This document shows positions 21,261-34,659 of a stretch of DNA of 37,039 nt, piece by piece. This DNA comes from Clostridia bacterium (GTDB lineage Bacteria > Bacillota > Sulfobacillia > SLMV01): the NCBI GenBank assembly GCA_003563985.1, contig PWSR01000120.1:1-37039 (forward strand), given 5' to 3'. The notes under the pieces are model-generated. The model was not told the DNA's origin and searched no databases. It was given only the letters and a program-made list of their open reading frames with translations. Both the position numbers and the translations under genes were made by a program. The stretch's first letter is position 1, and each line of letters begins with the position of its first letter.

Positions 21261-24200
21261 TCATTGAACCGATAGCGGCTCCAGGGTTTGGACCACCACG
21301 CTCGCGGCTCCACCCCGACGCCGTATCTCTCCTCGAACCGATAGCGGACCTTTGGCCCGGGGAAAGACCAGGTGACCGTATCGCCGATATGGGCCGGAGA
21401 ACAGTACCACATCAACCAAACCCGTTTCATCCTCCAGGGAAAAGAAAACGACCGTTTTCCCGCTTCGAGTCGGGGGCCTGTGCGGACATATGACCGTACC
21501 GGCTACGGCGACCTCCTCCCCTTCGGGCGCAGATCGAGCCTCGCGCGTCGTCACAAATCCCCTGTCGGTCAGCTCTTCCCGCTTGAGGCCCATCCAGCTG
21601 CCGCCGGCCTCGATACCCAGGATGCGCCTCTCCCAGACGATCTTCTCTTCGGGCGAAAAATCGGGGATATCCCGCGCAAACGACCCCACTCTTTTCCTTC
21701 GCCCCCCGGCGGTCAACATCCAAAGCAGGGAACGCCGATTCGGCTCCAGGGATGCCAGGGCACCGCACAGGATCAGGTTTTCCGCGAGATCCGCTCCGAT
21801 ATCGACCCGCCGCAGAAAATCCCCCGGGGAAGTGAAGAAACCATCGTCCCGGGCCCGGAGCAACCGATCCAGGGCTGCCCCTCCCATCCCCTTGACCTGG
21901 GCCAGGGATATCCGAATATTCCCTTCCTCGATGGTAAAGCGGGACCCGCTCGCATTGACATCCACCGGCAAGATCCCGATCCCCCGGCGCCGGACTTCGG
22001 TGCAGAGGGTATTGGGGGGATAGTAACCCATCGGCCAATTGCTCAGTACCGCGGCGAAAAACGCGGCCGGGTAATGCTGCGCGAGGTAGGCAGTACGATA
22101 GGCCGTGTTTCCGAAGGCCGCCGCGTGGGCTTCGCAGAATCCGTAGGATGCATAACCCCGGAGGTACGAATAGATCTGCTCCGCGATCTCCGCCCCGATA
22201 CCACGCTGGGCAGCCCGCTCGACGAAGAGGCGTCCCAATTCTTCCATCTCTACCCCGGGACGAGACCGACTCATGACCCGACGCAGGCGATCGGCCTCCC
22301 CCGGGCTGAACCCGGCGATCGCCACCGCGATCTCGATGACCTGCTCCTGGAAAAGCACGACCCCGTAAGTCTTGCGCAGTATCGGTTCCAAATCCGGGTG
22401 GATGTAAGTCACCGGCTCCGCCCCGTGGCGCCGGGCAATGTAGGGCTCCACCATATCACCCTTTATGGGGCCGGGGCGAATAAGAGCCACCGATGCGATG
22501 ATGTCCTCGAGATTTGAGGCACCCAGCCGAGATTGGAGCGCCCGCTGGGCCGGGCTCTCCAGTTGAAATACGCCCAGCGTCTCGCCGCGATGGAGCATGG
22601 CATAGGTTTCTTCGTCATCCTCGGGTATGGCCTGGTAATCGAAGGCGCGATCGCGGGTTCGAATATCCATCACGGCATCCTCCACGGCGGATAGCATTCG
22701 GAGCGATAGGAGGTCCAACTTGATCAACCCCAGTTCCTCTACGCCCTCCTTGTCGAATTGGCAAATCAATTCTCCCTTGGCGGAGCGCTGCAGCGGCGTG
22801 ACCTCCTCCAGGGGCCGATCGGAGATGACGAGTCCCCCGCAGTGGGTGGAAATGTGACGGGGAAATCCATCGACCGCCGCGGCGGCGGATAGCAGGCGTT
22901 CGTACCCCTCCCACCCCTCCGGATGGTTCCGGAATTCCGGCAGGATCTCCATAACCTCGGCGATATTGCCCGAACCGCTGCCCCGGGGGATCCGTTTGGC
23001 CAGGTCCCCCAGGACCTCGGGGCGAAATCCCATGGCCTTCCCCAGCTCCCGGACGGCCGAGCGGGCGCGAAAGGTATTGAAGGTGGCGACACCGGCCACG
23101 CGATTTTCCCCGTACTTCGCACGAACGTAATCCGCCACCCGGTCCCGATGACGGGCATCGAAGTCCACATCGATGTCGGGCTTTTCGCCGCGCTCTGGAC
23201 TCATAAACCGCTCGAACAATAGATTTCTCCCCAGGGCATCCACCTCGGTGATTCCCAGGCAATAGGCCACGGCCGAATCCGCCGCGGAACCCCTGCCGGC
23301 ACAACGAATCCCCCGCCCCCGGGCAAATCGGACGACATCCTCGACCAGGAGAAAGTAATCCGCATAGCCCTGGGATATGATCACATCCAGCTCTCGATCC
23401 AGGCGCTTGGCAACTTCACCGTCCGAATGACCGTACCGTTCCAGGGCACCTCGTCGCACCAGGTCCCGCAGGTGGTCCGCAGTCCCCACATCCCGGGGTA
23501 AGGCAAAGGTGGGATATCGCCTGCGGCCCAGGTCAGGAACCGGCTCGCAGGCCTCCGCGATGGCGAGCGTATTCCGTAGGGCATCCGGCAGGTGACGAAA
23601 ATGCCGGGTCATCGCCTCGGCTGATTTCAAGTAGTTCTCGGCATTCAGATGGCGTTCCGGGTTCGTCGCGGACAGGGTGGTGCCGGTGCGAACGCAGGTC
23701 AACAAGTCGTGGACGGGAAAGTCGGCCTTCCTCGCGTAGTGTACATCGGCCGAGGCCACCAGGGGGATGTCCAGTTCTTCACTCAATTCCACCAGGCTGC
23801 GGTGAAGGCCCAGGTCTCCCGGCAAAACGGCGGGTTGCAACTCCAAGTAAAGGGAGTCGCCCACCATCTCCCGGTAGAAAAGGGCCCTTTCCCGGGCTTC
23901 CCGGTAATGCCCGGATAATAGCAGGAAGGGGATCTCCCCCGCCCGACAACCCGACAGGACGAAGAGATCTTGCCCCATGCCAGCCAGCTCGGAGGGATCC
24001 AATCGGGGCCGGCCTCGCTCACCTCGTCGATGCGCCCGGGTCAACAACTTGCATATCCCGGCGTATCCCTCGGCGTTTCTGGCCAGGGCCACCAGGTGGT
24101 ATCCGCCCGGGAGGGTGAACTCCACCCCCTGGATCGGCTTGACCCCATATTTCTCGGCCGTCCGCCGAAAATCCACCGCTCCTCCCACGTTGTCATGGTC

Positions 24201-24317
24201 CGTCAGGGCTAGAGCCCTCATCTCCCCGGCGACTGCCCGTCGGACCAGCTCTCCGACGGAGCTTCCACCGTCGAGAAAAGAGTAGGGAGAATGGCAATGC
24301 AGGTGTACGAACTCCAC
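21261..24317 (-). CDS. dnaE2: DnaE2/ImuC-like error-prone DNA polymerase III alpha subunit
   Basis: PHP domain FVHLHCHSPYSFLDGGSS...LALTDHDNVGG; polymerase motif GEKPDIDVDFDARHRDRV; GSGNIAEVM; C-terminal OB fold VVFFSLEDETGLVDVVLF; 1018 aa; operon with ImuB-like gene. Confidence 0.85.
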   Translation of the reverse strand: MEFVHLHCHSPYSFLDGGSSVGELVRRAVAGEMRALALTDHDNVGGAVDFRRTAEKYGVKPIQGVEFTLPGGYHLVALARNAEGYAGICKLLTRAHRRGERGRPRLDPSELAGMGQDLFVLSGCRAGEIPFLLLSGHYREARERALFYREMVGDSLYLELQPAVLPGDLGLHRSLVELSEELDIPLVASADVHYARKADFPVHDLLTCVRTGTTLSATNPERHLNAENYLKSAEAMTRHFRHLPDALRNTLAIAEACEPVPDLGRRRYPTFALPRDVGTADHLRDLVRRGALERYGHSDGEVAKRLDRELDVIISQGYADYFLLVEDVVRFARGRGIRCAGRGSAADSAVAYCLGITEVDALGRNLLFERFMSPERGEKPDIDVDFDARHRDRVADYVRAKYGENRVAGVATFNTFRARSAVRELGKAMGFRPEVLGDLAKRIPRGSGSGNIAEVMEILPEFRNHPEGWEGYERLLSAAAAVDGFPRHISTHCGGLVISDRPLEEVTPLQRSAKGELICQFDKEGVEELGLIKLDLLSLRMLSAVEDAVMDIRTRDRAFDYQAIPEDDEETYAMLHRGETLGVFQLESPAQRALQSRLGASNLEDIIASVALIRPGPIKGDMVEPYIARRHGAEPVTYIHPDLEPILRKTYGVVLFQEQVIEIAVAIAGFSPGEADRLRRVMSRSRPGVEMEELGRLFVERAAQRGIGAEIAEQIYSYLRGYASYGFCEAHAAAFGNTAYRTAYLAQHYPAAFFAAVLSNWPMGYYPPNTLCTEVRRRGIGILPVDVNASGSRFTIEEGNIRISLAQVKGMGGAALDRLLRARDDGFFTSPGDFLRRVDIGADLAENLILCGALASLEPNRRSLLWMLTAGGRRKRVGSFARDIPDFSPEEKIVWERRILGIEAGGSWMGLKREELTDRGFVTTREARSAPEGEEVAVAGTVICPHRPPTRSGKTVVFFSLEDETGLVDVVLFSGPYRRYGHLVFPRAKGPLSVRGEIRRRGGAASVVVQTLEPLSVQ

Positions 24318-24330
24318 GGGAATTCCCCCG

Positions 24331-24588
24331 TCAATCGTAGATTCGATAAAGCACCCAGGGACCCGGACCCCGAACCTCCCGGCAAATCTCCACGAGACCG
24401 CCGCGGGCTATCCGGAGCCGATAGAACACCTTTTCTCGCTCCCCGGACCACCAACATCCCGTGTCTCGCCATCGTTCCTCGATGGCGACGATCTCAACCC
24501 ATACATCACCCAGGAGTACGGCCTCGGGAGTTCCCCGACATGATGTCCGGACACCCACCCTTCGATTCACCAATCGGCCCATTTCCAT
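24331..24588 (-). CDS. 85-aa small protein between imuB-like and dnaE2; resembles DUF6504-type proteins (from memory, low certainty)
   Basis: ATG at 24588 overlaps the imuB-like stop (TGATG). MEMGRLVNRRVGV...VEIVAIEERWRDTGCWWSGEREKVFYRLRIARGGLVEICREVRGPGPWVLYRIYD. 13 nt before dnaE2 start. Confidence 0.7.
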   Translation of the reverse strand: MEMGRLVNRRVGVRTSCRGTPEAVLLGDVWVEIVAIEERWRDTGCWWSGEREKVFYRLRIARGGLVEICREVRGPGPWVLYRIYD

Positions 24589-25790
24589 CACCTCCCCCGG
24601 AGCGGATCCCATAACTCCAGCATCCGCTCCCGGCGACAGGATCCCGCATCCTCGCCCCACCGGGCAATTTCACCCGGGAATTTTCGATCGAGGTCTTCTA
24701 CCAGTTCCGCCAGTATCTCCCGGCGATTCCGTTTCCCCCCGAGGATGGATACCTGCTCCAGTTCCCCGGGGCGCAACCCCGAAAACTCGATCCGGAAACG
24801 CTTTGGATACATTACGCCTCTGTCGTTCCAAAGGCGTCGCAGGGCGGATATCAAGGCCATCTGGCGTCGCCGGGGTCCGGAGAATTCCCTCTGTCCCCGC
24901 TCCCATCCGCCGTCTTCTCCGGACAACCAAAGGCTCATGCGCTTCGCCACTAGGGACTCGCGGTCCAGTTCCTCTGCGAGATCCCGGCAACACTGGACCA
25001 GGAATCCCTCGATGGCGGTGGACGTCCAATTCTCGACCTCTCCCTCGCGAACCCTTCTCGGGGGCGGATAGTTGCCGGTAACGATGGTACCGTCTCGCCC
25101 CCGGGCCCAACTGACCAATCGCCGTGCCCACCCCGGACCGAATCGCTCCCGCAGCAGCTCCTCGGAAATCCGGGCTACATCACCGAAGCGATCGAGCCCC
25201 AGGTGGGCGAGATCCCTGGAGATGTCCCCGGGGATCAATTGCGAAAAGGCGGGCGAGAGGGAAGCCAGGAGCCCCTCGCTTCCCTCCGCCCTTATCGCCA
25301 CCACCCGGGCCGCACGCCCCTCCAGGTGCCGAACCTCGCCGAACCCCCGCCCCGCAGCACCCAGGGCAACATCCGCCAAAACCTTTCCGGGCCCGTATCC
25401 GATGTGAAGGCTGTGCCCGAGATCCGGGGGGAGGCGGACCAGCAGTTCGCACACGAGGGCCAATGGATCCTCTCCCCGCGCCAGGTCGATCATCAGGTGA
25501 CCCGGCGATATCATCTCCACGCCGGGTGATACATCCGCCGCCGCCGCCGCGAAGATCTCCGCCCTCGGTCCATATCGGACGAGATCGCACTCCACCGCGC
25601 GGATACCGGGGCAGCGCATGGCGGCTTCCGACGATGATATACCGATCTCGATCCCCTCCCCGCGGGCGCGCGGACAAGTATCGACTACCGCGCCCTCCCG
25701 CAACACGATGGTTGGTCTGCACTCATCCCCGGGAACTCCGGCCTCCAGGGCGGCGAGCAGTCCCTCTAAAATGATTCCGAGCGCGGGCAT
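24588..25790 (-). CDS. imuB: ImuB-like Y-family DNA polymerase homologue, apparently lacking catalytic acidic residues
   Basis: Little-finger-like and HhH-like organisation (LGLDRFGDVARISEELLRERFG; PPPRRVREGEVENWTSTAIEGFLVQCCRDLAEEL). Motif I position reads ALGIILEGLLAALEAG and motif III reads ISPGHLMIDLA. ATG at 25790 with AGGGGG RBS. Confidence 0.78.
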   Translation of the reverse strand: MPALGIILEGLLAALEAGVPGDECRPTIVLREGAVVDTCPRARGEGIEIGISSSEAAMRCPGIRAVECDLVRYGPRAEIFAAAAADVSPGVEMISPGHLMIDLARGEDPLALVCELLVRLPPDLGHSLHIGYGPGKVLADVALGAAGRGFGEVRHLEGRAARVVAIRAEGSEGLLASLSPAFSQLIPGDISRDLAHLGLDRFGDVARISEELLRERFGPGWARRLVSWARGRDGTIVTGNYPPPRRVREGEVENWTSTAIEGFLVQCCRDLAEELDRESLVAKRMSLWLSGEDGGWERGQREFSGPRRRQMALISALRRLWNDRGVMYPKRFRIEFSGLRPGELEQVSILGGKRNRREILAELVEDLDRKFPGEIARWGEDAGSCRRERMLELWDPLRGR

Positions 25791-25807
25791 GATCCGACCC
25801 CCTAAAT

Positions 25808-25860
25808 CGAACATTTGTTCTGGTAGGAGCTATCATATTCCCCTCGCCCTCCGGAGTCAA
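25808..25860 (-). promoter_or_regulatory. SOS promoter: TTGACT-N17-TATGAT followed by LexA box AGAACAAATGTTCG
   Basis: Minus strand: -35 at 25860-25855, -10 at 25837-25832, LexA-box-like site at 25821-25808 (CGAAC-ATTT-GTTCT on +), 17 nt before the ATG at 25790. Confidence 0.82.
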
Positions 25861-27892: not shown

Positions 27893-30800
27893 TCAACAAC
27901 TCGAATCGCAGTGAAAGGCGAACCCACACCAGTGACAGCGGGCCCCGCGATGCTTCCGAAAATCCGCCTCGATCGCCGAGTCCTCGATGCTGCGGATCAA
28001 CTGCCGGGCGCGGGCGAATACGTCCTCTCCGCCCTCCTCGCCCGGGGGAAGGCGATGGTGGACACCGGGATGAAGGAAATGCAGGTACGCATCCGTTGCC
28101 GGATAGTAGCTCTTCCCGACCACCCCCAGGTATAGTTCCAACTGGAACCGATAGGATTCCGCCCGCTCGGCGATTCCCCCCGCGGAAACGCGATCGGTCT
28201 TGTAATCGACGACGCGCCAGTCCCCTTCTTCCGCCCGATAGAGGGCATCCACCACGCCGGAAATGTACCGATCCTCCAAACCCGGGACCTCCTCGAGGAA
28301 ACCCCATTCGCTGTACGCATCGCCCGAGCGGTGGGCGGTGCGAAACGCCCGGAAAAAGGTGCTCTCCGCGAAGACACGAACCAGTTCGAGCATCCGTCGA
28401 CGGACACCCGCCATGCCATCGGCTCCCTCCCAGAGGGCTGCCTCGCGCATGGCGGCGATGACCGCACCCTCCACGCTCTCCTCCAACAACAGCTCGCAGG
28501 CTCGATGGACCAGCGTACCGAAGCGCATGGGGTCCAGCGGGGAACGGTCGCGCCCGGGCGCCCCGGGATCGACCTCCGGGGCCAATTCGGGCCAGCCGAG
28601 TCGATGCCGCAGCAGGTAGAGACGGGGGCACTGCAGGTAATCGGTCAGGGCCGTCACGGAATACGTTTGCATGCCCGCCGGCTTCCCCGGGGGCAAGGGA
28701 TCCGGCAACCCGAGATCGGCCACCTTTCCGTAGTGGGCCAGCAGTTCCGCGGCATCTCCGGACGAACGATCCCGATCGCGGGGTGCCCCGGCGTTCTCCA
28801 ACCGCGCCAGGTCCAGGTGCGTCACCCGGATCGCCGGGGCGTGCTGCGGCTCCAACCCCGCGGCGTACCACCCGAAGTACGCGTTTTTCCCAAAGGCATC
28901 GACGGGGGGAATCCCGTCCTCCGCCGATTCCGGTTCCTCGCCGGCACCGCCCACCAGCACGAGCCGGCGTTCCGCGCGGGTGCAGGCGACGTAGAAAATC
29001 CGCATCTCCTCTTCGAGGCTCAGTTCCTTGTCCACGGCCGCCAGGTCCTCGAAGAAAGGGGCCGAATGATCCGGCAGATTCAATCCCAACCCGTGGGAAG
29101 CGTCCAGTACAAAGGATGTATTGGTGCGGGCCTGGGAGGAATCGGCGTCGGGAATGATCACCGTATCGAACTCCAAGCCCTTCGCTCGATGGATGGTGGA
29201 CAGTACCACCTCACCCTCGGGAATCGACCCGGCGGTCCCTTCATCCGCGGCGCCCACGCGAACCAGGGTGTCCAGGTGTCGGGCCAACTGCGCATAACCC
29301 GTTCCCTCTTCTCCTCCCATCTTCTCGGCCAGGGCGATGGCGCGGTCCAGGTTCAACCAGGCGTCTTCCGCCCAGGGATGCCCCGACAACACCTCGCGAT
29401 AGACGCTGTTCTCCAGCACGTGAACTAACAGCTCGTGGGGTGGCAGGAGCCGGCTCCAGGCCCTCCAGGTGGCGAGCGCAGACTGGCAGGCCACCAGCCG
29501 GTGATCCCGGGTTTCCGCGCCCAATGCACACAATCCATCCCAAAGGCTGCCCGCGGCCGCGTCCGATATTTCGAGTAAGATCTCGTCCTCCAGGGAGAAA
29601 AAGGGAGAACGAAGCACCGTGGCGAGGGAGATGTCGTCGGAGGCGTCGGCCAACCAGTGAAGAACGGCCTTGAGATCGGATACCTCCTCGGATTCGAAAA
29701 AACCGCGCCCTCCCGCGACTCGGTACGGGATCCCCCGGGCGGCCAGGGCCCGGCCACAGGGCTCCAGGGAGTTCCCCGATCGACCCAGGATGGCCACGTC
29801 CCCCGGGGATCCACCCGAGGACAGCCACGTCTCGATGCGATCCGCGATCACTTCCCCCTGGCGACGACGAAACTCGCCCCGATCCTTCCCCGTGGAAGGG
29901 CGGGCCAGCATCAGGAATTCTACCGACTGCCCTTCACTCGCCTCGGCCTCCGGGGCCGGCGACAGGGGTACGTACTCGGCGAAGCGCCGGGAAAAGACCG
30001 AGTTGGTCAGATTCACCAGGTCGGGTGCGCTGCGGAAGTTGGTGTCCAGGTGAACATCCTCGGCGCCCCCCCGCCGGAGTTGCTCCGCTGCGGAGCGGAA
30101 TATGCCGACATCGGCGCCCCGGAACCGGTAGATGGATTGATCGGCATCGCCGACCACGAAGACGCCGCCATCTCGCTCCGATCCGACGGGAGATTCCCCG
30201 CGGATGAGTTGAACGATTCTCCATTGGACTTCATCCGTATCCTGGAATTCATCCACGAGCAAGTGGCTGTATCTCCTCTGTAATCGGAGCAAGAACTCCG
30301 GGTGGGATTCCATGGTATTCAATGCCAGCTTCTGCAGATCATCGAAGTCCAGGACACCCCGACGCTCCTTTTCCGTCTCGTAGCGACGATCCATCTCCTC
30401 CACGGCGTGCAGAAACTCCCGGGTGGCGGCCCACTCCCGGCGAAGATCGGTCTTCCGACCGATGGCGTGGAGGGCACCCACCGGCTCCCGGTAATCCTTG
30501 GGGCAACTCTTGGTGGGCAGTGCCCGCCGCAGGTCTTCGAGGGCAGCCTCGGCGTCGCCCGCCTCGAACCGATGGCGAAGATCTCGCCATCGCCCGGCCA
30601 AGGCCTCCACCTTGGGTGGATACACCTTGGACCGGGAGGCCGCGCCGGCCCGGTGCAGTTCCAGTATCCGTTCGACGGTATCGATAACCTCCCGGGTGTC
30701 GCCAGAATCCAACCCTCCGGACGCCCAGGTGCCCGGGGTACCACCGATCCGGTAGTACATGTTCTCAATGGAATCCGATGTGACCCGGACCACGTCTCGC

Positions 30801-31408
30801 CAGCTCATCGTGTGCCGCATGGCGGCATCTCGAACCCGCTGCATCAGTTCCGTGGGAGAGGACCCGAATCGATTTCCGTGTCCCCGCCGATCCGCCATCT
30901 CCCGCAGATGCTCGGCGTCCCAGGGACCCAAGGCCTCGTCCAATACCTCCCGGGATATATCCTCCAGGATCAACCGGCGCTGATACGGATCGATGACGGC
31001 GAACTCCGGATCCAGTCCCGCCAGGTGCGGGTAATCGCGGAGCACGCTCTGGCAAAAACCGTGGATGGTCCCGAGGTATGATGCCTCGATTCGCCAAACC
31101 AGTGACCTCCAGTGGTTTGCCCCGTGGGCATCCCCATCATCACGGGCCGCGATCCATCGCGACGCCAGGCGATGGCGCAACCGCTCCTTCATCTCGGCGG
31201 CGGCGCGATTCGTGAAGGTGATGGCCGCGATTCGCTCGGGGGCGACCCCGGTGGCCAACAGGTGCTCCATCCGGCCGACCAGCACCCGGGTCTTGCCGCT
31301 ACCGGGGCCCGCACCGACGACGACGTCACCGGTTTGGCTCTCGATGGCCCGTCCCTGGGGCTCCGTCGGCTCCGGCAGTGCTCCGCCCGCGAAAGGATAT
31401 CTATTCAT
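27893..31408 (-). CDS. addA: AddA-like UvrD/REP-family helicase with C-terminal PD-(D/E)XK nuclease
   Basis: GAGPGSGKTRVLVGRM, AAITFTNRAAAEMKERL, LLVDEFQDTDEVQW, GDADQSIYRFRGAD, VVLSTIHRAKGLEFDTVII, IFYVACTRAERRLVLVGG; nuclease GVVDALYRAEEGDWRVVDYKTD; CHWCGFAFHC tail. ATG at 31408 overlaps the addB end. Confidence 0.9.
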   Translation of the reverse strand: MNRYPFAGGALPEPTEPQGRAIESQTGDVVVGAGPGSGKTRVLVGRMEHLLATGVAPERIAAITFTNRAAAEMKERLRHRLASRWIAARDDGDAHGANHWRSLVWRIEASYLGTIHGFCQSVLRDYPHLAGLDPEFAVIDPYQRRLILEDISREVLDEALGPWDAEHLREMADRRGHGNRFGSSPTELMQRVRDAAMRHTMSWRDVVRVTSDSIENMYYRIGGTPGTWASGGLDSGDTREVIDTVERILELHRAGAASRSKVYPPKVEALAGRWRDLRHRFEAGDAEAALEDLRRALPTKSCPKDYREPVGALHAIGRKTDLRREWAATREFLHAVEEMDRRYETEKERRGVLDFDDLQKLALNTMESHPEFLLRLQRRYSHLLVDEFQDTDEVQWRIVQLIRGESPVGSERDGGVFVVGDADQSIYRFRGADVGIFRSAAEQLRRGGAEDVHLDTNFRSAPDLVNLTNSVFSRRFAEYVPLSPAPEAEASEGQSVEFLMLARPSTGKDRGEFRRRQGEVIADRIETWLSSGGSPGDVAILGRSGNSLEPCGRALAARGIPYRVAGGRGFFESEEVSDLKAVLHWLADASDDISLATVLRSPFFSLEDEILLEISDAAAGSLWDGLCALGAETRDHRLVACQSALATWRAWSRLLPPHELLVHVLENSVYREVLSGHPWAEDAWLNLDRAIALAEKMGGEEGTGYAQLARHLDTLVRVGAADEGTAGSIPEGEVVLSTIHRAKGLEFDTVIIPDADSSQARTNTSFVLDASHGLGLNLPDHSAPFFEDLAAVDKELSLEEEMRIFYVACTRAERRLVLVGGAGEEPESAEDGIPPVDAFGKNAYFGWYAAGLEPQHAPAIRVTHLDLARLENAGAPRDRDRSSGDAAELLAHYGKVADLGLPDPLPPGKPAGMQTYSVTALTDYLQCPRLYLLRHRLGWPELAPEVDPGAPGRDRSPLDPMRFGTLVHRACELLLEESVEGAVIAAMREAALWEGADGMAGVRRRMLELVRVFAESTFFRAFRTAHRSGDAYSEWGFLEEVPGLEDRYISGVVDALYRAEEGDWRVVDYKTDRVSAGGIAERAESYRFQLELYLGVVGKSYYPATDAYLHFLHPGVHHRLPPGEEGGEDVFARARQLIRSIEDSAIEADFRKHRGARCHWCGFAFHCDSSC

Positions 31409-34400
31409 CGTTCGCCTCCTCCCCACGCGGCGCCCCGGGAACGTATTCCTTGTCGGCCATCCGATCCCGCGAGTACCGGCAAAGGCCCGGGTACGGACAA
31501 TATTCGCAGTCCCCTGAATCAAAGGGGAACATGGGGAATCGACCCTCGTTCATGCCGCGCCAGGATCTCAAGATGTGTCGGGCCGCCGCCGCCAGGAGGG
31601 CATCCATATCCGGGATCGCCCGGGATTCCGGCAATCCGAGGATGGGCAATGCCTCGGGCCGATAGATACCCCGCTCCCAGTTCGCCCCCGAAACGCTGAT
31701 ATACCCCCCGCCCAGCAGGTCCTTGTCCGGGTTCTCGATCCCGGCTGCCATGAGGTACAGGGGCATCTGGGCATCGCCACCCCGCTCGGCCGTATCGGCC
31801 TTGGGGGGATTCGTCCCCAGCTTGTAGTCGAATACCATCAGGCGATCGCGCTCCTCTCCCCCGGGATTCTCCCAGATGTCCAGTCGGTCGATCGTTCCCG
31901 AGATCTTTACATCTTCTCGAACTGCCACCCCGGCTTCACCGAGCAATCGACCCAGGGGATGCTCGAAGCGGTGTTCCAACCGATAGGGTTGCATATCCCT
32001 TCCCGGCACCCGTGAACGACGTTCGTCCTCGGCTTCGAGGAGGTCGCCCAGGGTGGATATTGCACGCCTCGCAACGGACTCCCACCACACGTCGCCGATC
32101 CACCCCAAACCCTCGCGAAGTTCCGCCAACGCCTCTTCCAGGATCTCCTCTAGGATCTCGCGGCGGGCGCCGAAGCGGGTATCATCTCCTTCTCCCAGGG
32201 CCAATAGCGGGATCAGATCGCGATAGTATCTCTCCAAGACGCGATGGTACAGCTGGCCCGCGCGGTGGGCCGCCAGGGATTCCTCGGGGCGAAAGCCATC
32301 ATCGAGTCCAAGGATGTGGGACGCGAAAAAGCGATAGGGACAACGGCCGTAGGCATCCAATCCCGTGACGGCCAAGCGCCCCCGCCGGGCCAGGTAGGAT
32401 GCCACCTTCGACGTCGCGGATTGTCCCAGGATGCCGTCCCAGGGACCGAATTCGCGGGACCAGCGGGCGGACTCGGCGGCGGTGGCGCGCGCCAACTCCC
32501 GGGCACCGGGGTTCGGTAGGGAGCGGATGGAGGGACCGGGAAACCTCTCGCGTCGCCCGCGTTCCAGGGTTTCTCCGGCCAACTCCAGCGTCTCCTCCAG
32601 CAAACCATTATGTCCCCGCACCGCTCCCAAGAGGCGGAGTCGCATCCGGGTCCACGTTCCCGGGGTTCGATCCCGGTCCCGGGACCCGGTGAGGTCTTCG
32701 TACGACTCCGGGTTCTCCATGGCCAACTCTTGGAGGTAGGGGGACACCGTCGTAGTTCTCCCGTCACTCTTGGCCGAATGGATGAGGAGTAGATCGGCCT
32801 CGCAGGCGCGGACCGCCCGGTAGAACCGGCGATTCTGCTCCCGGTAGGATTCCGCATCCGGCGGGTGATCACGCACCAATCGACCGATCCACGAAGACGC
32901 CACCGGACCCGGGTAGGTTCCGGCCGAGATATCGGGCATGGCCACGATTTGATAGGTCTCCCCGGATAATTCCTCGGGCAATGCCAGTCGAACACCCCTG
33001 CCAGCCCCCGGACGTCTATCCAGGAGATCGGGCGTCGCGGGCTCTCCCACGAGAACGCCGGCGAGCATTTCCTCGAAGGCGGCGGAGAAGATCGTTCGAG
33101 AGCACCGGGGATCGGTCTGGCCGAACAATCCACCGAGGGACAGGCGCAAGCCATCGGACATCTTGCGCCAGGCATCCAGATCCCGGAGGGTATCCACCCC
33201 GTATCCCCCGTCGGATTCCAGGACCTCCCGGATGCCCCGGGGCACCCCCAGGGTGTCCAATGCCCGGAGGAAGCCGTCGACCAACGGCTGGCTTCCCCTC
33301 TCGGGCACGCCATCCAGGATGCGATTCAAATCCGAGAGGGCGCCTTCCATGGCGGATATCTCGTCGATCCATCCGCCGAGGGTACCCGTGGATTCCCAGG
33401 CGATGGCCCCGGAACCACCCGTACGGGCCCGAAGGGATCGCTTCACCGTGGCCAGGTGTTCCCGGATGTCCTCGCCTTCCAGCTGGGGCGGCACGAAACG
33501 CGTTAAACGAAGCAGTCGTTCCCACTCCCCCAGGTACGGACCCGAAACCAGGTCGACCAGGTTCTCCGCCGAGGGGGACTCCAGCACCCGCAGGAGGGCC
33601 CGGGCCACCCGTCCCGGCCCGGTCTCGCCCAGGGTGACGGCTGGAGCGGTATCCACGGGAACGCCGGCCCGAACGAGTTGCTTCGCTCCCATCCGAAGGC
33701 GAGCGGAAGAAGAATAGACCACGCAACAGCGGTGGACGGGCGTACCGCCCCGGATCTCCTCCTTGATTCGCGCCGCCAGTTCTTCGACACCCTCTGCATC
33801 ATCGGACACGCGAAAGGCGCTGGTTCGGGGTCCCGTGGTGGGATCCCACCCCGCGGGGTGAAATATGCGCGCGGCGAGTCCCGAGCGGTTCCGGTCGGGA
33901 TCGTAGGCGACGACGTGGGATTCCAAATCTCCCAGGTCCCGTTTCAATTCATCGGTGGTCGGGAAGAGATCGGGACGCTCTCCGTCCCACGCCAGCAGCA
34001 ACAGCGGGTCTCGGGACCGGCAGAAGGCAGCGGTAAGCAATTCGATCGTGGGTTGATCCAGGTGCCAGAATCCCTCCACGGTAAAACGATCCCAGAGGAA
34101 TCCTTCGTCCTCGCCTTCCCGCAACGCCCGGGCTAGCACGTGAAATAGGCGCGGGCCGTCGGCCAAATCGTATTCGGCGAGGAGATCCTCGTACGCGACG
34201 AGCAGGGCCCGGAGTTCCCCGGGGAGGTCTCCCGCATCCGCCAATTCGCCCTCGCGGGTTTCCCTGACGAATCGCGCCAAGGACTCGGCCGTTCCCCGGC
34301 GTCCCCAGATTCCGGCGAGCCCACCCGACGGGGAGGGTTCAATTCGAGCCACCAGTGCGCGGATGAGGGCGTTCTGTTCCCATCCCTGTAGACGCCGGAG

Positions 34401-34631
34401 CCCGATCCCCATCCGGATGGCCAGTTCTCCGATCCATCCACCCATCATCTTCACGGGAATCCGATCTCCGCCCGGTGAGCCGGTCCGTTCCATGTGCATC
34501 CTTCGGCGTTGAATCATGAGATTGCGGTCGGCCACGAGGTAGAGATCCCGGGGGGAGCCTTCATCCCCCCGTGCGCTACCGCCGAGACGCGCTCCGGCCA
34601 ATGCCTTCGCATCGAGATCCGTCGTTTTCAC
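31401..34631 (-). CDS. addB: AddB-like helicase-nuclease subunit with Fe-S-type nuclease domain
   Basis: 1076 aa; DAYGRCPYRFFASHIL; GTIDRLDIWENPGGEERDRLMVFDYKLG; CEYCPYPGLC near the C-terminus; coupled to addA. No Walker A recognised at the N-terminus. Confidence 0.85.
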   Translation of the reverse strand: MKTTDLDAKALAGARLGGSARGDEGSPRDLYLVADRNLMIQRRRMHMERTGSPGGDRIPVKMMGGWIGELAIRMGIGLRRLQGWEQNALIRALVARIEPSPSGGLAGIWGRRGTAESLARFVRETREGELADAGDLPGELRALLVAYEDLLAEYDLADGPRLFHVLARALREGEDEGFLWDRFTVEGFWHLDQPTIELLTAAFCRSRDPLLLLAWDGERPDLFPTTDELKRDLGDLESHVVAYDPDRNRSGLAARIFHPAGWDPTTGPRTSAFRVSDDAEGVEELAARIKEEIRGGTPVHRCCVVYSSSARLRMGAKQLVRAGVPVDTAPAVTLGETGPGRVARALLRVLESPSAENLVDLVSGPYLGEWERLLRLTRFVPPQLEGEDIREHLATVKRSLRARTGGSGAIAWESTGTLGGWIDEISAMEGALSDLNRILDGVPERGSQPLVDGFLRALDTLGVPRGIREVLESDGGYGVDTLRDLDAWRKMSDGLRLSLGGLFGQTDPRCSRTIFSAAFEEMLAGVLVGEPATPDLLDRRPGAGRGVRLALPEELSGETYQIVAMPDISAGTYPGPVASSWIGRLVRDHPPDAESYREQNRRFYRAVRACEADLLLIHSAKSDGRTTTVSPYLQELAMENPESYEDLTGSRDRDRTPGTWTRMRLRLLGAVRGHNGLLEETLELAGETLERGRRERFPGPSIRSLPNPGARELARATAAESARWSREFGPWDGILGQSATSKVASYLARRGRLAVTGLDAYGRCPYRFFASHILGLDDGFRPEESLAAHRAGQLYHRVLERYYRDLIPLLALGEGDDTRFGARREILEEILEEALAELREGLGWIGDVWWESVARRAISTLGDLLEAEDERRSRVPGRDMQPYRLEHRFEHPLGRLLGEAGVAVREDVKISGTIDRLDIWENPGGEERDRLMVFDYKLGTNPPKADTAERGGDAQMPLYLMAAGIENPDKDLLGGGYISVSGANWERGIYRPEALPILGLPESRAIPDMDALLAAAARHILRSWRGMNEGRFPMFPFDSGDCEYCPYPGLCRYSRDRMADKEYVPGAPRGEEANDE

Positions 34632-34659
34632 GGGTTAATCCTCCGTCCACAGCAAAAAT

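Follow-up and report, generated by a model that had tools for sequence, protein, structure and literature searches.

The C-terminal domain of ImuB was named ImuB-C by Aravind et al. (2013; PMC3765255), who also noted standalone copies of it with DnaE2 and an inactive DinB. Timinskas and Venclovas (2019; PMC6511836) described an operon of Kyrpidia tusciae composed of an inactive PolY, a standalone ImuB-C and DnaE2; imuA was not found in the genomes with a Kyrpidia-type operon, and RecA was proposed instead. A 2026 survey in NAR (PMC12926913) describes DnaE2X with iPolY, ImuB-C and RecA, and places the β-barrel of tuberculosis ImuB on the PHP domain of DnaE2. We found no bench test of a system of the iPolY/ImuB-C/DnaE2 kind in the literature.

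Here we analyse an operon in a 37,039-nucleotide stretch of DNA (the window) from a Clostridia bacterium (contig PWSR01000120.1 of assembly GCA_003563985.1). Wherever its features could be read clearly, it agrees with the published iPolY/ImuB-C/DnaE2X kind: the same three proteins, a dead Y-family member and no imuA found. A putative RecA-N-terminus (RecA-NT)-like motif would be a further likeness. No functional difference was found in this comparison with the published descriptions; lexA lies outside the operon in this genome, yet the operon carries a LexA box. An earlier note on this DNA had proposed a variant error-prone machine with a small protein as third subunit. The SOS operon stands, and the small protein is probably a true subunit, but the architecture is already published (2019 and 2026, both computational) and what the window adds is a good further example of a known system.

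Three other described systems share part of this composition. The ImuA–ImuB–DnaE2 mutasome of Mycobacterium, Caulobacter and Pseudomonas has SOS control, a dead Y-family scaffold, an ImuB-C domain and DnaE2 in common with the window, where, however, no ImuA was detected, ImuB-C is a separate gene and DnaE2 falls outside the ImuA-linked DnaE2 branch. The lexA–imuB-C–polY operon of Geobacter sulfurreducens likewise has a standalone ImuB-C beside a Y-family gene in an SOS context, but its Y-family polymerase is apparently active and DnaE2 is absent from the operon (PMC6511836). Streptomyces DnaE2B–iPolY–RecA (scDinB2) combines a dead Y-family member with DnaE2 and no ImuA, as in the window, but without ImuB-C.

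Operon layout and SOS control

The sequence and its open reading frames bear out the three tightly packed minus-strand genes described earlier (Table 1). The iPolY stop TGA (24590–24588) overlaps the ATG of the small gene (24588–24586) in TGATG, and dnaE2 starts with a GTG 13 nt beyond the small-gene stop. The listed iPolY start, ATG 25814, falls within the LexA box; translation is therefore more likely to begin at ATG 25790, which is preceded by a GGGGG run. The small protein may start at ATG 24582, where its relatives begin.

Table 1 Features of the mutasome operon (positions in the window)
Feature	Position	Strand	Remarks
LexA (SOS) box AGAACAAATGTTCG	25808..25821	-	Covers the upstream ATG in the iPolY frame; core 25809-25820
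iPolY, an inactive member of the Y-family polymerases; resembles ImuB but lacks ImuB-C	24588..25790	-	400 aa from the likely start, ATG 25790
β-clamp-binding-like motif QVSIL, iPolY residues 346-350	24741..24755	-	Putative, from sequence
RecA-NT-like motif RREILAELVEDLDRKFPGEIARWGE, iPolY residues 356-380	24651..24725	-	hhalign
Conserved iPolY C-tail RRERMLELWDPLR, residues 386-398	24597..24635	-	Alignment of 24 sequences
Standalone ImuB-C (DUF6504)	24331..24588	-	85 aa; 83 aa if from ATG 24582
DnaE2-type error-prone polymerase	21261..24317	-	1018 aa; PHP + palm/NTPase + finger + HhH + OB

The LexA-like box that had been read at the promoter is real, and is common to the recA and lexA operons. 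The genome has 39 copies of its core, GAAC-N4-GTTC, compared with 4 of a reversed-pattern control. Sites of the narrower form GAAC-RNRY-GTTC precede thpR–recA–recX, a LysM(yneA-like)–lexA pair, uvrB and the gene of a DEAD-box helicase (apart from recA and lexA, these neighbours were named by eye from their translations). LexA itself is encoded on contig C196 of the same assembly. For 43 relatives the region before iPolY is available, and in 31 of them the box lies between −350 and +150 of the frame start, compared with 38 of 860 random windows drawn from the same loci (4%). Two LexA-type boxes of this genome, at L055 (box 1235) and L058 (box 1205), lie in front of a DEAD-box helicase gene and close to ftsZ; the one close to ftsZ may be due to chance.

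About 2 kb upstream of the operon, also on the minus strand, two adjacent large genes (window 27893–34634) form an AddAB-like pair: one encodes a UvrD-like helicase with a PD-(D/E)XK nuclease, the other a further protein of the PD-(D/E)XK type.

An ImuB encoded by two genes

Profile searches agree with the families suggested from the sequence, returning IMS and IMS_C for the ImuB-like protein (iPolY), PRK05672 for DnaE2 and DUF6504 for the small-protein family. The Pfam matches of iPolY are weak (IMS E 7.6e-7, IMS_C 1.4e-4). When its AlphaFold model (pLDDT 88) was compared with the PDB by Foldseek, it matched Y-family polymerases (E 7e-23). The catalytic D, D and E are all replaced: motif I reads GIILEGL compared with HLDMDAF in the genome's own Pol IV, and motif III reads PGH compared with LDE, aligned by eye through a shared VE. 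The motif I Asp is absent also from the other iPolY operon members displayed. Judged by these replacements, iPolY is a catalytically dead Y-family polymerase. In Syntrophomonas-type loci (L087, L089, L094, L095, L098–L100, L102, L103, L108 and L109), the iPolY frame is about 345–370 aa long and wholly lacks the N-terminal motif I region, a further reduced scaffold.

After the little finger, iPolY carries in order a putative QxxLF-like clamp motif, a helix resembling the RecA N terminus and an RRExxLxxWDPxR tail. Many relatives have a QxxLF/QxxLW-like motif at the equivalent site (QLALF, QPDLF, QMELW), from which QVSIL in the window deviates with respect to QxxLF. The RecA-NT-like motif aligns in register with RecA N termini in hhalign (P 0.003; reversed control P 0.7). 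It was not significant in a single-sequence pairwise shuffle test (6%) and HMMER gave no match, so that profile–profile alignment is the one approach in which the resemblance appears. In the C-tail, E388, D395, P396 and R398 are invariant in 24 sequences. iPolY ends after WDPLR with no fused ImuB-C.

ImuB-C is instead encoded by the small gene. By itself, the small protein scores below the Pfam cut-off for DUF6504 (E 0.0076), and in the alignment of its family 19 of 20 members match DUF6504 (best 6e-14). The family profile aligns end to end, over 81 columns, with the C termini of canonical ImuB from Neorhizobium, Chelativorans, Azospirillum and Thermomicrobium (hhalign P 1.3e-6). Invariant residues, read over 41 distant sequences, include P21, G44, W46, W47, E50, K53, F55, R57, E67, W78, Y81 and D85. 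The AlphaFold model is confident (pLDDT 90) and all-β, with seven strands, and searches of the PDB by sequence and by fold found no counterpart, as was reported for ImuB-C in 2026 (PMC12926913). On this profile evidence, we identify the small protein as ImuB's C-terminal domain, carried on a gene of its own; since iPolY lacks that domain, ImuB is split between two genes.

This identity bears on the role that the earlier note had given to the small protein, that of a new adapter in the place of ImuA, making up a minimal three-protein machine with no RecA-like partner. The conservation of the small protein between the two polymerase genes would be in keeping with such a role, as would the failure to find ImuA in the window or the assembly. 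However, the small protein is homologous to the C-terminal domain of ImuB and not to ImuA, which rules it out as an ImuA substitute, and iPolY keeps a putative RecA-NT-like motif, which would point to a RecA-type partner. We consider the adapter reading improbable. With ImuB split in this way, it is probably RecA, and not the small protein, that stands in for the missing ImuA.

The polymerases and the search for ImuA

The window DnaE contains the Pfam domains PHP, DNA_pol3_alpha, finger, HhH and OB, and its catalytic Asp motifs, PDIDVDF and KLDLL, are retained. Among NCBIfam models it scores best with that of the error-prone polymerase subfamily PRK05672, where its 882 bits fall slightly short of the 939 cut-off. 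A search of the genome found a second DnaE on contig C115, which exceeds the cut-offs of two equivalog models for DNA polymerase III alpha and is, by its sequence, most likely the replicative enzyme (DnaE1). The window DnaE is therefore not the sole replicative polymerase, a reading that the earlier note had named as fatal to its proposal. The genome also encodes an active Pol IV.

In a phylogenetic tree that also took in ImuA-linked DnaE2, Streptomyces and DnaE1 sequences, the window DnaE clusters with its counterparts from other Bacillota iPolY/ImuB-C operons; it may belong to the DnaE2X branch. The ImuA-linked DnaE2 encoded on rhizobial, Azospirillum and Thermomicrobium plasmids lie outside, in a separate clade (support 100/99); the rooting of the tree is unreliable, as are the long Streptomyces and DnaE1 branches. 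Taking domains, motifs and grouping together, we assign the window DnaE as a DnaE2-type error-prone polymerase, distinct from the replicative DnaE.

The window contains no imuA, as first noticed, and none was detected elsewhere in the assembly, which is 90.9% complete and in which the model NF033429 and two ImuA protein queries gave only RecA or nothing. These searches are of limited sensitivity, NF033429 having exceeded its cut-off in no control genome. One RecA-family protein in the assembly exceeds the cut-off, RecA itself. Could the system nevertheless be a canonical ImuA–ImuB–DnaE2, with ImuA hidden in an unassembled contig? The state of the assembly (90.9% complete, in 211 contigs) would allow for it, but the ImuB of this operon is split, which that of the ImuA-bearing loci we read is not, and no imuA was found in the genomes with a Kyrpidia-type operon (PMC6511836). 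The chance of a hidden ImuA is slim, slightly below that of the adapter reading. Finally, it is scarcely credible that the operon is a relic of functionless ImuB and DnaE2 remnants with a decaying pseudogene for its Y-family protein: the loss of all iPolY catalytic residues, and of the N-terminal motif I region in Syntrophomonas loci, would suit decay, but the frames are open, ImuB-C residues are invariant over 41 distant sequences, the iPolY C-tail and SOS box are conserved, and the catalytic motifs of DnaE2 are intact.

On a Thermomicrobium roseum plasmid (L074:1703–7168), a RecA/ImuA-like gene, a hypothetical protein and dnaE2 lie in a row; the hypothetical protein, annotated only as such, aligns as an ImuB with fused ImuB-C.

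Proposed mutasome and its distribution

We propose that the operon encodes a translesion mutasome which is induced in the SOS response and belongs to the published iPolY/ImuB-C/DnaE2X (plus RecA) kind, a reading to which we give a probability of about 0.86. By analogy with the described systems, we infer its subunit contacts, the part of RecA in place of ImuA and its mutagenic activity as follows. DNA damage would lead to RecA filaments, these to LexA cleavage, and this to transcription of the operon. The dead iPolY would act as a scaffold, holding the β-clamp through its QxxLF-like motif, while its RecA-NT-like helix would bind the exposed end of a RecA filament, taking the role of ImuA-binding in canonical ImuB. 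ImuB-C would link iPolY to DnaE2, the presumed mutagenic polymerase, which would perform lesion bypass.

The tail of UmuC is the docking site for UmuD'. The conserved C-tail of iPolY is a candidate for a similar site, at which ImuB-C may dock. More tentatively, and with the odds somewhat against it, the RRExxLxxWDPxR tail would dock the detached ImuB-C, canonical ImuB would be a fusion of the pair, and ImuB-C would join the RecA-bound scaffold to DnaE2 as a link that can be exchanged and is dosed separately.

A profile search of genome contigs yielded 53 named loci, all in Bacillota, with hosts that include clostridial metagenome-assembled genomes, Syntrophomonas, Thermincola and Symbiobacterium. 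Elsewhere, too, the small protein keeps its place next to iPolY and DnaE2, as the earlier note required of a third subunit: iPolY lies upstream and DnaE downstream of ImuB-C on the same strand in 37 of 42 Bacillota loci, a count restricted to named loci with sufficient sequence on either side. Of 154 genomes of the class, 135 have ImuB-C, which is thus nearly universal there. On this distribution, the organism of the window is most likely an uncultured clostridium related closely to sediment metagenome-assembled genomes that appear among these loci and in the DnaE tree.

Some loci are arranged differently. In L121 (326–1405, minus strand), iPolY is divergent from ImuB-C–DnaE, and in L115 (3305–5896, minus strand) an 864-aa minus-strand gene lies between iPolY and ImuB-C. 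Peptococcaceae bacterium CEB3 has a standalone ImuB-C gene (L130:5974–6204) with neither PolY nor DnaE adjoining.

The survey adds many Bacillota examples of the iPolY/ImuB-C/DnaE2 system, in which SOS control is conserved. The cultured genera Syntrophomonas, Symbiobacterium and Thermincola are ones in which the system could be tried.
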